DNA from: an uncultured Oscillospiraceae bacterium
GTDB taxonomy: Bacteria > Bacillota > Clostridia > Oscillospirales > Oscillospiraceae
Reading direction: 5' to 3'
Length of the DNA stretch: 16,753 nt
Assembly (NCBI GenBank): GCA_934565415.1
Contig: CAKTHQ010000043.1
Coordinates: forward strand, 1 to 16,753
The number at the start of each line of letters is the position of its first letter. The stretch's first letter is position 1. The position numbers were made by a program, and so were the translations under genes. Under the pieces are notes generated by a model that worked only from the letters and a program-made list of their open reading frames with translations, did not search any database and was not told where the DNA came from. Positions 1-16,753 of this stretch are shown here, piece after piece.

Positions 1-30
1 GAACCTACCGGCTTTCGTTAGGTGTCCCCT

Positions 31-129
31 CCACCCCCGGCCTGCGGGCCACCCCCTCCACGCAGGAGGGGGAAGGGGATTTTTCCCGCCCGCCGGTACC
101 TACCGTTTAACCCGTCAACTCCCCATTTG
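31..129 (+). repeat. Dispersed double-hairpin repeat, copy 1, with extended flank
   Basis: Two hairpins lie side by side: GGCC (39-42) with GGCC (47-50), and an 8-bp stem CCCCCTCC (52-59) with GGAGGGGG (65-72), followed by AAGGGGATTTTT. Positions 92-129 (starting GCCGGTACCTACCGTTTA) recur almost exactly, in inverted orientation, at 16681-16718. The two-hairpin core is related to those near 4731, 12187, 12331 and 16731. No coding role is visible. Confidence 0.7.
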
Positions 130-186
130 TCGGACTGCTCACCCATTTGCAATGTATGCAATCGCCCTGCAAGGGGGGAATGCCGG

Positions 187-214
187 TTGACATTCCCAAA
201 ATATCTGGTATACT
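187..214 (+). promoter_or_regulatory. Sigma-A promoter, extended -10, orphan
   Basis: TTGACA (187-192), a 16-base spacer and TATACT (209-214), with an extended TG at 206-207. It is among the best promoter matches in the window, yet no normal gene follows. Downstream lie only a very short ORF and a hairpin at 379-405, so the product may be a small RNA or the remnant of a lost gene. Confidence 0.6.
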
Positions 215-296
215 GCAGGTAATTGCATATAAATGAACCGTCGATGCGGAACGCATAGAAGGGCTTTTAAGTATTTTTACTGTGAGGTAAGCGATA

Positions 297-1814: not shown

Positions 1815-2552
1815 TTATTCAGCGGCAGTCTCTTCGGCAGCGGGAGCAGCCTCTTCAGCGGCAGCGTCTTCACCCTGACGGCCCTCGATGGCGGCGTTGG
1901 CCATAGCGGCGGCAATCAGACGGATGGCGCGGATGGCGTCATCGTTGCCGGGGATCACATAGTCGATCTCGTCGGGATCGCAGTTGGTGTCCACGATGGC
2001 CACGATGGGGATGTTCAGCTTGCGGGCCTCGGCAATGGCGTTGCGCTCCTTGCGGGGGTCAACAATGAACAGAGCGGCGGGCAGCTTCTTCATTTCCTTC
2101 ACGCCGCCCAGGTACTTCTCCAGCTTCTCGATTTCGGCCTGGTGCTTGATGACTTCCTTCTTGGGCAGCATGGCGAAGGTGCCGTCCTCTTCCATCTTTC
2201 TCAGCTGAGCCAGACGGTCGATCCGGGTACGCATGGTGCGGAAGTTGGTCAGCATACCGCCCAGCCAACGGGCGTTGACATAGTAACCGCCGCAGCGGGC
2301 AGCCTCTTCCTTGATGGCGTCCTGGGCCTGCTTCTTGGTGCCTACGAACAGGATGTTGCCGCCGTTGGCAGAGGTGTCGCGGACGAAGTTGTAAGCCTCT
2401 TCCAGCTTCTTAACGGTCTTCTGCAGGTCAATGATATAAATACCATTGCGCTCGGTGTAGATGTAGGGGGCCATTTTGGGGTTCCAACGACGGGTCTGGT
2501 GACCGAAGTGAACGCCTGCCTCCAGCAGTTGCTTCATAGATACGACAGCCAT
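1815..2552 (-). CDS. rpsB: 30S ribosomal protein S2
   Basis: S2 is a late-assembling protein of the small ribosomal subunit. The 245-residue product begins [20 protein letters not shown], the family's signature N-terminus, and contains [20 protein letters not shown] and the conserved [10 protein letters not shown] region. The C-terminus is a Glu/Ala-rich tail ([13 protein letters not shown]) as in many Firmicutes. AAGGAG precedes the start. It heads the rpsB-tsf operon. The roughly 125-base 5' leader contains a long hairpin (2599-2628), so feedback control by S2 is possible; that is inferred from general ribosomal-protein biology and not shown here. Confidence 0.98.
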
Positions 2553-2598
2553 TTTTACAGTTCTCCTTTTGTTTTTCCTCCACCCCGATCATCCCGCT

Positions 2599-2628
2599 CT
2601 GCCCGCCTGAAAGCAGGCACCTGGGCAG
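2599..2628 (-). promoter_or_regulatory. Hairpin in the rpsB leader, possible autoregulatory element
   Basis: On the minus strand, CTGCCC pairs with GGGCAG and an inner GCCTG pairs with CAGGC across a 4-base loop, separated by an AGGT bulge. It lies mid-way in the leader between the promoter and the rpsB ribosome binding site. A second self-complementary patch, CCCGGG, lies just upstream in the transcript. Many r-protein operons are controlled through leader structures, but I cannot assign this one to a known class. Confidence 0.4.
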
Positions 2629-2683
2629 CCGGTCCCCGGGTGTGTGGTTTTTATAAGCTATGGGCGCAAACCCACGCTGAAAT

Positions 2684-2712
2684 ATTATACCCAAAGTGAG
2701 GCCATATTGCAA
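2684..2712 (-). promoter_or_regulatory. Sigma-A promoter of rpsB-tsf
   Basis: Minus strand: TTGCAA (2707-2712), a 17-base spacer and a perfect TATAAT (2684-2689). Transcription would start around 2677 and give a leader of about 125 bases before the rpsB ATG. Confidence 0.8.
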
Positions 2713-2782
2713 GAATTTTTTTCGTTTTTTCAAAGAAACTTCGGGGCACTTTCGGGGGCTTGGTTGTGGAAAGGGCACAAAA

Positions 2783-2990
2783 GAAAGAAATTCTTGCTGA
2801 CGCAAGGAAGAAATCCTTGCAGCGCAAGGGTGAAATCTGCTTCGCAGAAGAAATCCGCCAAGGCGGGTGAACTATGATCCATGCTCTCTCCCGCCGCAGC
2901 GGATTTCATCCCGCAGGGATTTCACCCACGACTGTGGATTTCACCCGTCCAAAGGACGGATTTCACTGGGGCCGCAGCCCCAATCTTCAC
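2783..2990. repeat. String of nine short hairpins with GAAAT/ATTTC spacers, inverted about its centre
   Basis: Nine small stem-loops occur in a row: 2793-2806, 2815-2829, 2837-2847, 2855-2866, 2891-2902, 2909-2919, 2926-2937, 2945-2959 and 2967-2982. Stems are 4 to 6 bp with 2- to 4-base loops. Stem sequences differ between units, but pairing is kept. The left four are separated by GAAGAAAT, GTGAAAT and AAGAAAT; the right five by ATTTCAT and ATTTCAC (three times). The two spacer types are reverse complements, so the halves mirror each other around 2880. The string fills the gap between the ylmC stop codon and the rpsB promoter; its last hairpin could also help to end sigG-ylmC transcripts. 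It is not coding and not a CRISPR. Confidence 0.8.
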
Positions 2991-3268
2991 CCCGGGAACT
3001 TCGGCTTGGGCCTGGGCACCCTACAGTCCTTGGGGTGCACATCCACCAGGACGATGTCCGGCCCTACCTTTTTGACGCAGCTCCAGGGAATTACATAGTC
3101 GTCCTTCCGCCCGGCTACGCCCAGGAGCTTACAGGGGCCGGGGACCACGATGGCGGCAATGACCCCCTCCGGCACCTCGGCCACAATATCGGAGATAAAC
3201 CCCAGCCGCGCCCCGTCGCAGACGCAGATGACCTCTTTACATTGTAATTGGGTAAATTTAACGCCCAT
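2987..3268 (-). CDS. ylmC: YlmC/YmxH family PRC-barrel sporulation protein
   Basis: A 93-residue protein with a PRC-barrel-like pattern: the early strand LQCKEVICVCDGARLGFISD, a central hydrophobic strand VIAAIVVPGP, then YVIPWSCVKKVGPDIVLVDV. Members of this family in Clostridia commonly sit beside sigG or sigE and are described as sporulation-linked; their biochemical role is not established. The start was set at 3268 because GGAGGGG lies 6 bases upstream of that ATG, while the ATGs further upstream overlap or precede the site. It follows sigG by 45 bases on the same strand, so co-expression with sigG is likely. The gene name is assigned by family, not by orthology testing. Confidence 0.85.
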   Translation of the reverse strand: MGVKFTQLQCKEVICVCDGARLGFISDIVAEVPEGVIAAIVVPGPCKLLGVAGRKDDYVIPWSCVKKVGPDIVLVDVHPKDCRVPRPKPKFPG

Positions 3269-3313
3269 GCACATCCCCTCCGGTGGGAACACTCTATGCG
3301 TTCCCCGGGGGGC

Positions 3314-12109: not shown

Positions 12110-12180
12110 ATTTATAAGTCTCTATAGATGTTCCAGGGCGGAATTCCCCGGTTGAATGGTGCAGCCTGACAGACGGAAAT

Positions 12181-12381
12181 CCCTTTCCCTCTCCAAGCTT
12201 GGAGAGGGTGGCCCGCAGGCCGGGTGTGGTTGGAAACCCGGTACGATAAAATGTAGATTTGTTTTGATAATACAGACAAATTGGAATATTTCGTTCATCC
12301 AACAGCTTGAAATATCGTACTTTTTCAACCACACCCGCCTCTGCGGAGGCACCCTCTCCATTCTTGGAGAGGGGAGGGGCT
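12181..12381. mobile_element. MITE-like element with double-hairpin terminal inverted repeats
   Basis: A roughly 200-base non-coding block whose ends are inverted copies of about 60 bases. The left end (12187-12248) holds CCCTCTCC/GGAGAGGG, GGCC/GGCC, then GGGTGTGGTTGG and GTACGATA. The right end (12314-12373), read backwards, holds the same hairpins, GGGTGTGGTTG and GTACGATA. The AT-rich centre has no ORF. No clear target-site duplication was seen. The right end abuts the yihY ribosome binding site, so the element fills the whole fakA-yihY gap. Its ends are copies 3 and 4 of the dispersed repeat at 31, 4731 and 16731. It has no transposase and would depend on one elsewhere if it ever moved. 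Confidence 0.6.
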
Positions 12382-15604: not shown

Positions 15605-16678
15605 ATGAAAGAAAACAGCTCCTTTACGGAAGGAAAGATTTTGCGGCCCCTGATCCTGTTTGCGCTGCCGGTGCTGCTGGCGCTTTTTCTGCAGGCCATG
15701 TACGGGGCGGTGGATTTGCTGGTGGTGGGGAAATTTGCCTCCGCTACGGATGTATCCGCAGTATCTACCGGCAGCCAGATCATGACCTCTCTGACGAACC
15801 TCGTCAGCAGCTTTGCCATGGGGACCACCATTCTTCTGGGCCAGCAGCTGGGCAGCGGAAAAAAAGAAGAGGCCGGCCGGACCGTGGGCACCGCAATCGT
15901 GATGTTTGTGGGCATCGCGGTGGTGCTGTCCCTGCTGCTGCCGGTGTTTGCCACCCAAATCTGCAAGGTGATGAATGCCCCCCCGGAGGCCTTTGGGCAG
16001 ACCGTCAGCTAAGTGCGTATCTGCGGCGGGGGCATGGTGGTGATTGTGGCCTATAACCTGATCGGCTGCATCTTCCGGGGGCTGGGGGACTCCAGAACGC
16101 CCCTGATTACCGTGGCCATTGCCTGCGGTATGGGCGTGATTGCCTCCGCCGGTGTGGGGGTGGCGGAAAAGGTCTGCGCCTTTATTATGCTGATTTCCTC
16201 TGCGTTTATGCAGTCCATGTCTGCCTTTGTGGCCCAGAACTACGGCGCGGGGAAGCTGGACCGGGCGAAAAAGGCGCTGTACTATGGCATCGGCGTATCC
16301 TTTGTCATGGGCGTAGCCATGTTTGCCGTCACCTTCTTCCACGGGGATGTGCTGGCCGGGATTTTCTCCCCGGACAGGGAAGTCATTCTGGCGGCGGCGG
16401 ACTAACTGGAAGCCTACGCCATCGATTGCCTGTTTACGGCCGTGTTCTTCTGCTATGTGGGCTTTTACAATGGCATCGGTAAAACACGCTTTGTCATGCT
16501 CCAGGGCATCCTGGGCGCCTTCGGCGTCCGTGTGCCGGTGTCGTATCTCATGAGCAGGCTGCCGGGGGCTACCCTCTTCCGTATTGGGCTGGCTACCCCC
16601 ATGTCCTCTGTTTTGCAGCTCATTCTCTGCCTGGGGTATTTTGCGGTGGTGATGAAGAAGGAGAAGCGGGAAGGGTAA
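15605..16678 (+). pseudogene. MATE family efflux transporter (MepA-like), disrupted
   Basis: The reading frame runs 357 codons but is cut by two in-frame TAA codons, at 16010-16012 (after FGQTVS, before VRICGGGMVV) and 16403-16405 (after LAAAD, before LEAYAIDCLF). In MATE relatives both positions are normally Tyr (VSYVRICGGG; AADYLxAYAID), so single changes from TAC or TAT explain both. The part around 16115-16140 joins LITVAIACGM straight to GVIASAGVGVAEKV, skipping roughly 80-100 residues normally found there; MATE proteins usually have about 440-460. The intact product would export cations or drugs by Na or H antiport, here probably guanidinium given the riboswitch. The upstream promoter, riboswitch and AAGGTG site remain. 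No frameshift is seen, so decay looks recent. Confidence 0.88.
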
Positions 16679-16680
16679 GG

Positions 16681-16753
16681 CAAATGGGGATTTGACGGGG
16701 TAAACGGTAGGTACCGGCGGCAAGCTCTTCCCCCCTCCTGCATGGAGGGGGTG
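16681..16753 (-). repeat. Dispersed double-hairpin repeat, partial copy 5, inverted relative to copy 1
   Basis: Starting just after the MATE pseudogene stop, 16681-16718 is the near-exact reverse complement of 92-129. It is followed by hairpin B, CCCCCTCC (16731-16738) with GGAGGGGG (16744-16751). Hairpin A would lie beyond the end of the window. Confidence 0.7.

Follow-up and report, generated by a model that had tools for sequence, protein, structure and literature searches.

Between rpsB and a ylmC/ymxH-like gene in the genome of an uncultured Oscillospiraceae bacterium lies a string of small hairpins in mirror image, which raises the question of what built it and whether it serves the genes on either side. 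The string was analysed within a stretch of 16,753 nucleotides, here called the window, in which rpsB is an open reading frame at 1815–2552 and the ylmC/ymxH-like gene, recognized from its sequence and from relatives, lies at 2987–3274, both on the minus strand.

The hairpin array and its locus

The whole element occupies positions 2783–2990 and, as judged by direct reading, folding and hairpin statistics, is gene-less and consists of two strings that face each other and alternate hairpins with 7-nt spacers, nine hairpins being readable at 2793–2982. The left string (2793–2866, plus strand; sequence reading and stem count) contains hairpins at 2793–2806, 2815–2829, 2837–2847 and 2855–2866, separated by the spacers GAAGAAAT (2807–2814), GTGAAAT (2830–2836) and AAGAAAT (2848–2854), two of which are worn. 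In the right string (2891–2966, minus strand; sequence reading and exact spacer sites), the hairpins at 2891–2902, 2910–2918, 2926–2937 and 2945–2959 are accompanied by ATTTCAT (2903–2909) and three copies of ATTTCAC (2919–2925, 2938–2944 and 2960–2966), which read on the minus strand as ATGAAAT and three GTGAAAT; the unit on this strand, on which ylmC, rpsB and tsf are encoded, is GTGAAAT plus hairpin. A head hairpin (2967–2982, minus strand, by stem count) adjoins ylmC, a position that a terminator hairpin occupies, by eye, in relatives, and the TGA stop of ylmC (2987–2989) falls within the spacer-like GGTGAAGAT, where the element begins. The centre between the facing halves (2867–2890) is worn in the window; by-eye comparison with loci L226, L227 and L232 indicates that relatives retain a closing stem there, for example AAATCCGTCC..GGACGGATTT. 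GTGAAAT/ATTTCAC is present in four exact copies, inverted between the two sides of the array, and the spacers of the two halves are able to pair across the centre, as the first-pass annotation of this DNA had proposed.

The mirror-image string of nine hairpins described in that annotation also withstands comparison with shuffled sequence. Segment 2760–3010 folds 5.0 (plus strand) and 5.4 (minus strand) standard deviations below dinucleotide shuffles, none of 200 of which is as stable on either strand. Non-overlapping hairpin stems within 2783–2990 add up to 45 pairs; the highest total among 500 base-composition shuffles is 33, and the rest of the window averages 18.5. The hairpin array is thus beyond chance, although the strength of the nine hairpins is uneven and not all are strong, with stems of only 4 bp in about two of the nine (the class of 2855–2866, 2891–2902 and 2926–2937). 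Other hairpin-dense stretches of the window are 1–260 (40 pairs, peak at 1–53) and 12169–12380 (39 pairs, peak at 12169). Near the two window ends, the translations of 22–222 (plus strand) and 16465–16743 (minus strand) have a similar string in common (RRYLPFNPSTPHL / RRYLPFTPSNPHL), which from the sequence is probably another dispersed repeat.

The ylmC–rpsB interval of the window measures 434 nt (2553–2986), and the array ends before an rpsB promoter-like site read from the sequence (TTGCAA-17-TATAAT, 2684–2712, minus strand); relatives have, by eye, the same promoter layout. Thirty relatives were fetched for comparison and rpsB was located in 27, in which the interval is 159–217 nt in 17, 233 and 247 nt in two, and 292–562 nt in eight. 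The closest relatives by YlmC are Pseudoflavonifractor sp. MSJ-30 (87%, locus L121), in which a palindrome of a TTGACAA-like 7-mer lies at this site, and an Oscillospiraceae metagenome-assembled genome (89%, L122), from which the array is absent at this site. A measure of 7-mer repetition flags four of the 27 relatives: L164 (the MSJ-30 locus), L166, L174 and L192. In the first three of these, 7-mer palindromes of other sequence can be read directly after the ylmC stop, and no GTGAAAT string was read at this site in any of the four. The remaining long intervals (L167, L169, L173 and L184) appear to contain other repeats. In most relatives no array is present at the site that it occupies in the window.

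Gut-1 and its dispersed copies

The first-pass annotation knew of no repeat class for this array, a statement that the Rfam covariance models overturn: the right half matches Gut-1 (RF01706) at 2898–2968 on the minus strand with 58.3 bits, over the cut-off of 50, and a facing match of 37.4 bits, under that cut-off, covers 2806–2878 on the plus strand. Gut-1 is the sole Rfam match in the whole window. It was described as a noncoding RNA from human gut samples (Weinberg et al. 2010, PMC2864571), and its UGAAAU spacer and three successive hairpins, as given in the part of that paper available to us, are the same in the window. Unlike Gut-1 as presented there, the sequence analysed here is one arm of a facing pair, is dispersed and is linked to a protein gene; one arm has been named, yet the whole unit is the facing pair.

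Of 300 genomes of the family, 53 have Gut-1 matches at an E-value of 0.001 or better, 36 of them over the cut-off, and neither of the two nearest relatives has any; 14 control genomes gave a single match, in E. coli and under the cut-off. With the window array as a BLAST query, 25 of 400 genomes matched. Two genomes scanned more fully hold 33 (G063) and 23 (G074) Gut-1 matches, many as facing pairs, and Gut-1 is accordingly a dispersed, multi-copy repeat. The stems vary between genomes yet still pair, and unit numbers differ among copies. A loose triple-spacer pattern applied to viral contigs returned at least 120 stretches and was set aside, the pattern being, by eye, too loose.

The G063 copies, which measure about 309 nt except for one of 273 nt, lie at distant loci and are 81–95% identical to one reference copy. 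These elements lie in the loops of intrinsic terminators, the arms of which form their flanks: the pairing score of a copy's own flanks averages 25.8 for nine full copies, whereas 72 swapped pairs average 13.3, with a 95% point of 20 and a maximum of 28; seven of the nine exceed 20, the two others scoring 12.0 and 15.5. In every one of 11 copies, including two partial ones, an open frame stops 14–32 nt ahead of the same element end; all 11 share this orientation to the upstream gene, and about five also face a nearby convergent frame. All ten aligned copies have a central hairpin with A- and T-runs. For one G063 copy an empty site was sought and none was found, its genus holding one genome. 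In G074, the array beside the single PF05635 gene resembles the arrays at all 14 other fetched loci, which had been picked as Gut-1 matches, the best pieces being 83–98% identical and ending at the array's last spacer in L215, L217, L222 and L225. The G074 arrays (L211–L225) often adjoin another repeat, CACCGTAGGGGCGACCATCGGTCGCCC.

Within G063, 27 of 106 stem pairs vary, and the types of change comprise five double, 11 one-sided and 18 non-pairing. Of what the first-pass annotation expected, the recurrence of such strings in relatives is observed, whereas maintained pairing is not what the G063 stems display, as they break more often than they co-vary (18 against 5); compensatory change as the sole process is not supported in this genome. 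Alignment of L193–L203 further reveals loops inverted between near-identical G063 copies (GGGA/TCCC and CCTCGG/CCGAGG), which points to template switching or cruciform exchange.

PF05635 genes beside the strings

A four-helix protein used as query has relatives in eight of 109 whole-genome loci, mostly array loci, and all six relatives tested belong to PF05635 (S23, 23S_rRNA_IVP); the reading frames of the window include no four-helix or PF05635 relative. Among 30 genomes, namely 27 with Gut-1 matches and three (G309, G397 and G483) with window-array matches, PF05635 matches occur in 24 (over the cut-off in 23) and number 52 in total, and six that carry Gut-1 or window-like arrays have none. 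When coordinates were compared by hand, at least 13 of these 52 had a Gut-1 or window-array match no more than 500 nt away. Among the matches listed, other PF05635 genes lie at hairpin strings with the spacers TGATAT, CGATAT, TGATGT, TGATGC, TGAAGC, TGAATTG or TGAAGT, and others at plain tandem TTCACTA-like and other 7-mers. A string or 7-mer signal, defined as an exact 7-mer at least four times or a lag-7 identity of 0.70 over 28 nt, was found within 300 nt upstream of 45 of the 52 genes and in three of 210 windows of the same loci, in a genome set that had been selected for Gut-1 and whose main genomes are incomplete, and with thresholds set after looking: a first measure that allowed a mismatch had not distinguished genes (median 8) from controls (median 7) and was changed to exact 7-mers and then to exact 7-mers or lag-7 identity. 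With the same thresholds, a later Bacillota set gave a weaker result, 29 of 45 genes against 15 of 182 controls when either side is counted (24 upstream, 20 downstream).

The association may extend to plasmids, of which 27 records match PF05635. Nine of the 12 fetched have an exact 7-mer at least four times on one side, a count made without control windows and for which the 320 nt counted in L304 extend into annotated neighbours; in L307, L312 and L313 the 7-mers are, by eye, shorter or worn. These plasmid 7-mers occur in Spirochaetota, Bacteroidota, Cyanobacteriota and Chloroflexota and are often inverted on the two sides of the gene. In L307, L311 and L312, the four-helix gene and its 7-mers are situated amid restriction-modification or related genes, for example between hsdS and hsdR.

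The type of string follows the protein clade. When 47 of the 52 proteins are placed on a tree, hairpin-type (26) and tandem-type (16) strings require two changes, against 13 in shuffles, none of 500 of which is as low, and six spacer types on 30 proteins require five changes, the least possible, against an average of 17.5 and a minimum of 14 in 300 shuffles. Each of the ten TGAAAT proteins belongs to a different genome, and in G150, G189 and G283, which have several PF05635 genes each, a distinct spacer lies beside every gene that has one. Gene-less copies carry the gene-linked 7-mer in the tested genomes, with exceptions. Triple strings of TGAATTG give 13 matches at seven places in G230 and ten at six places in G189, the two genomes with a TGAATTG-linked PF05635 gene, one match in G283 and none in 13 others, counts that include overlapping matches and, in G230 and G189, the gene's own array as one of the places. 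Likewise, TGACAATTGACAATTG has 20 matches in G001, 24 in G002, three in G532, two in G551 and none in 12 others, with the reversed control pattern matching seven times in G063 and three times in G551. G001 is MSJ-30, whose only listed PF05635 gene is flanked by the TGACAATTGACAATTG 7-mer, and the same 7-mer builds the palindrome at the orthologous ylmC–rpsB site. G002 does not appear among the genomes with a listed PF05635 match; in G063, G180 and G195 the spacers at the PF05635 genes that were found are unlike those of the Gut-1 copies, a mismatch that is not decisive because these genomes are incomplete.

The insertion sites have hairpin loops as a common theme, the terminator loops of G063 among them. 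A tRNA gene lies just ahead of the array on the same strand in 26 of 52 PF05635 loci, with none on the other strand and none downstream, and in L353, L359, L364, L365 and L372 the element lies inside 23S rRNA. The RNase P RNA gene likewise contains a PF05635 element with inverted 7-mers in L362 (1229–2003), where the element sits between the two arms of a helix of that RNA, and in L367 (1207–1981). The usual position of the GTGAAAT type is, by eye, behind a terminator. Direct repeats of at least 14 nt flank array and gene in six of 50 loci against three of 600 swapped pairs, and inverted repeats of at least 12 nt in ten of 50 against 12 of 600, some of the flanking repeats being second arrays and not target duplications (L283, L326). 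In L301, L294 and L330, the 3' end of a tRNA together with terminator sequence is repeated on either side of array and four-helix gene, an arrangement that resembles a duplicated target.

Origin of the array

A probable explanation, on these data, is that the array is a gene-less, non-autonomous, REPIN-like satellite of a family of selfish elements of the IVS type that carry a PF05635 gene. Full members would consist of a gene for an S23 four-helix bundle and a body of facing strings of a 7-nt unit, with a small hairpin between units in the clade of the window (unit GTGAAAT, Gut-1). We infer that the PF05635 protein drives the copying: it would bind the string of its own 7-mer, in the form of RNA or single-stranded DNA, and assist in copying it into hairpin loops or behind terminators. 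To our knowledge, no catalytic activity of this protein has been described; the strand-joining enzyme may be the host's, and DNA could move without a known activity of the protein by template switching or through a host enzyme. A master array would stand beside the gene and gene-less satellites elsewhere, as in the REPIN-RAYT pair, in which facing palindromes depend on one master gene, although here the protein is different, not being a Y1 transposase, and the GTAG tag is absent. The copying mechanism that the first-pass annotation had considered gains support from the dispersal of the strings, their near-identity inside single genomes and their tie to a gene family. The copy in the window is probably near neutral, as it follows the stop codon of ylmC and ends short of the promoter-like site of rpsB, and its worn left spacers and worn centre suggest an old, inactive satellite.

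The intervening sequences (IVS) of 23S rRNA offer a close likeness in their PF05635 gene, inverted ends, insertion in a hairpin and 7-mers before the gene, as in Coxiella, where 7-mer repeats precede the S23 gene (PMC4990558, as far as its text was available). The window copy differs from them in being gene-less and situated between protein genes, not in rRNA, and the IVS literature available to us in part contains no mention of dispersed gene-less strings. Solved relatives of the PF05635 protein are 2RLD and 2GSC; the protein of 2GSC has been described as a ring of five four-helix bundles, and S23 proteins "have no known function" (PMC4990558, in the portion available). Bacterial heptamer repeats are described, in the accessible parts of two papers, as intergenic 7-mer arrays of unknown cause, and hairpins between units, as in the window array, are not mentioned in those parts (PMC4679880, PMC4692102); similar heptamer arrays flank PF05635 genes in the analysed loci, and words for four-helix or intervening do not occur in the main texts of the two papers. 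We found no statement of a link between PF05635 and the strings in the open-licence literature, accessible in part, in which PMC4990558 mentions both heptamers and the S23 gene.

Other explanations were weighed against that of a PF05635-linked satellite. That the array ends ylmC transcription, stabilizes the mRNA or forms a barrier before rpsB, the last akin to the RNA decay barrier suggested in the first-pass annotation, would suit its place directly after the ylmC stop, the T-rich tails that two of the nine hairpins have on the minus (coding) strand towards rpsB, and the three terminator-like sites of the region (0.8 expected); the short interval in 17 of 27 relatives and the other 7-mer palindromes in L164, L166 and L174, none of them of GTGAAAT, make this quite improbable, although the two tailed hairpins may still act as a weak terminator. 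It is also unlikely that Gut-1 is a functional noncoding RNA, one or two of which the window would hold, with pairing kept by selection on the RNA. Such an RNA would agree with the Rfam family, the mark "Y" for RNA in the part of PMC2864571 at hand, the strong folds and the stems that differ between genomes yet pair; it does not account for facing copies on both strands, many per genome and in terminator loops, for unpaired drift in the young family of G063, or for a spacer that follows the protein clade.

A REP/REPIN element moved by a Y1 (RAYT) transposase would likewise be made of small facing palindromes, extragenic and multi-copy, and Y1_Tnp is encoded in 20 of 28 genomes. The other eight lack it, however. 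Of 35 Y1_Tnp matches, just one shares a contig with a listed array match, and it is 12.6 kb off, which leaves none inside a distance of 12 kb; GTAG does not occur at 2467–3020 on either strand. With no Y1_Tnp gene beside the listed arrays and no GTAG tag, this mover was rejected as very improbable. A quasi-palindrome whose growth and self-rewriting are due to template switching during replication, with no mobilizing protein, would explain the G063 loop inversions, the five double changes among 27 variable pairs and the varying unit numbers. Local slippage is insufficient, because near-identical copies with shared ends occur at distant loci and spacer and protein are congruent, and as the whole explanation this one is as doubtful as that of a noncoding RNA; template switching may act on the element in addition.

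Beyond the PF05635-linked satellite, a wider proposal, to which we give a little under an even chance, is a new class of selfish element without a transposase, in which each S23-type protein would read one 7-mer, arranged in facing strings that are either tandem or spaced by hairpins, and copy these strings into loops, the targets being structured RNAs (23S rRNA and RNase P RNA), intrinsic terminators and tRNA-terminator junctions, with the window copy as a gene-less satellite. If this is true, Gut-1, rRNA intervening sequences and many orphan heptamer repeats are one system. The link between PF05635 and the strings would account for seven-base repeats that are widespread and so far unexplained, and a protein clade that predicts its 7-mer makes both S23 function and heptamer origin testable. 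Gut-1 itself is recast from a predicted RNA family to one arm of a DNA element.
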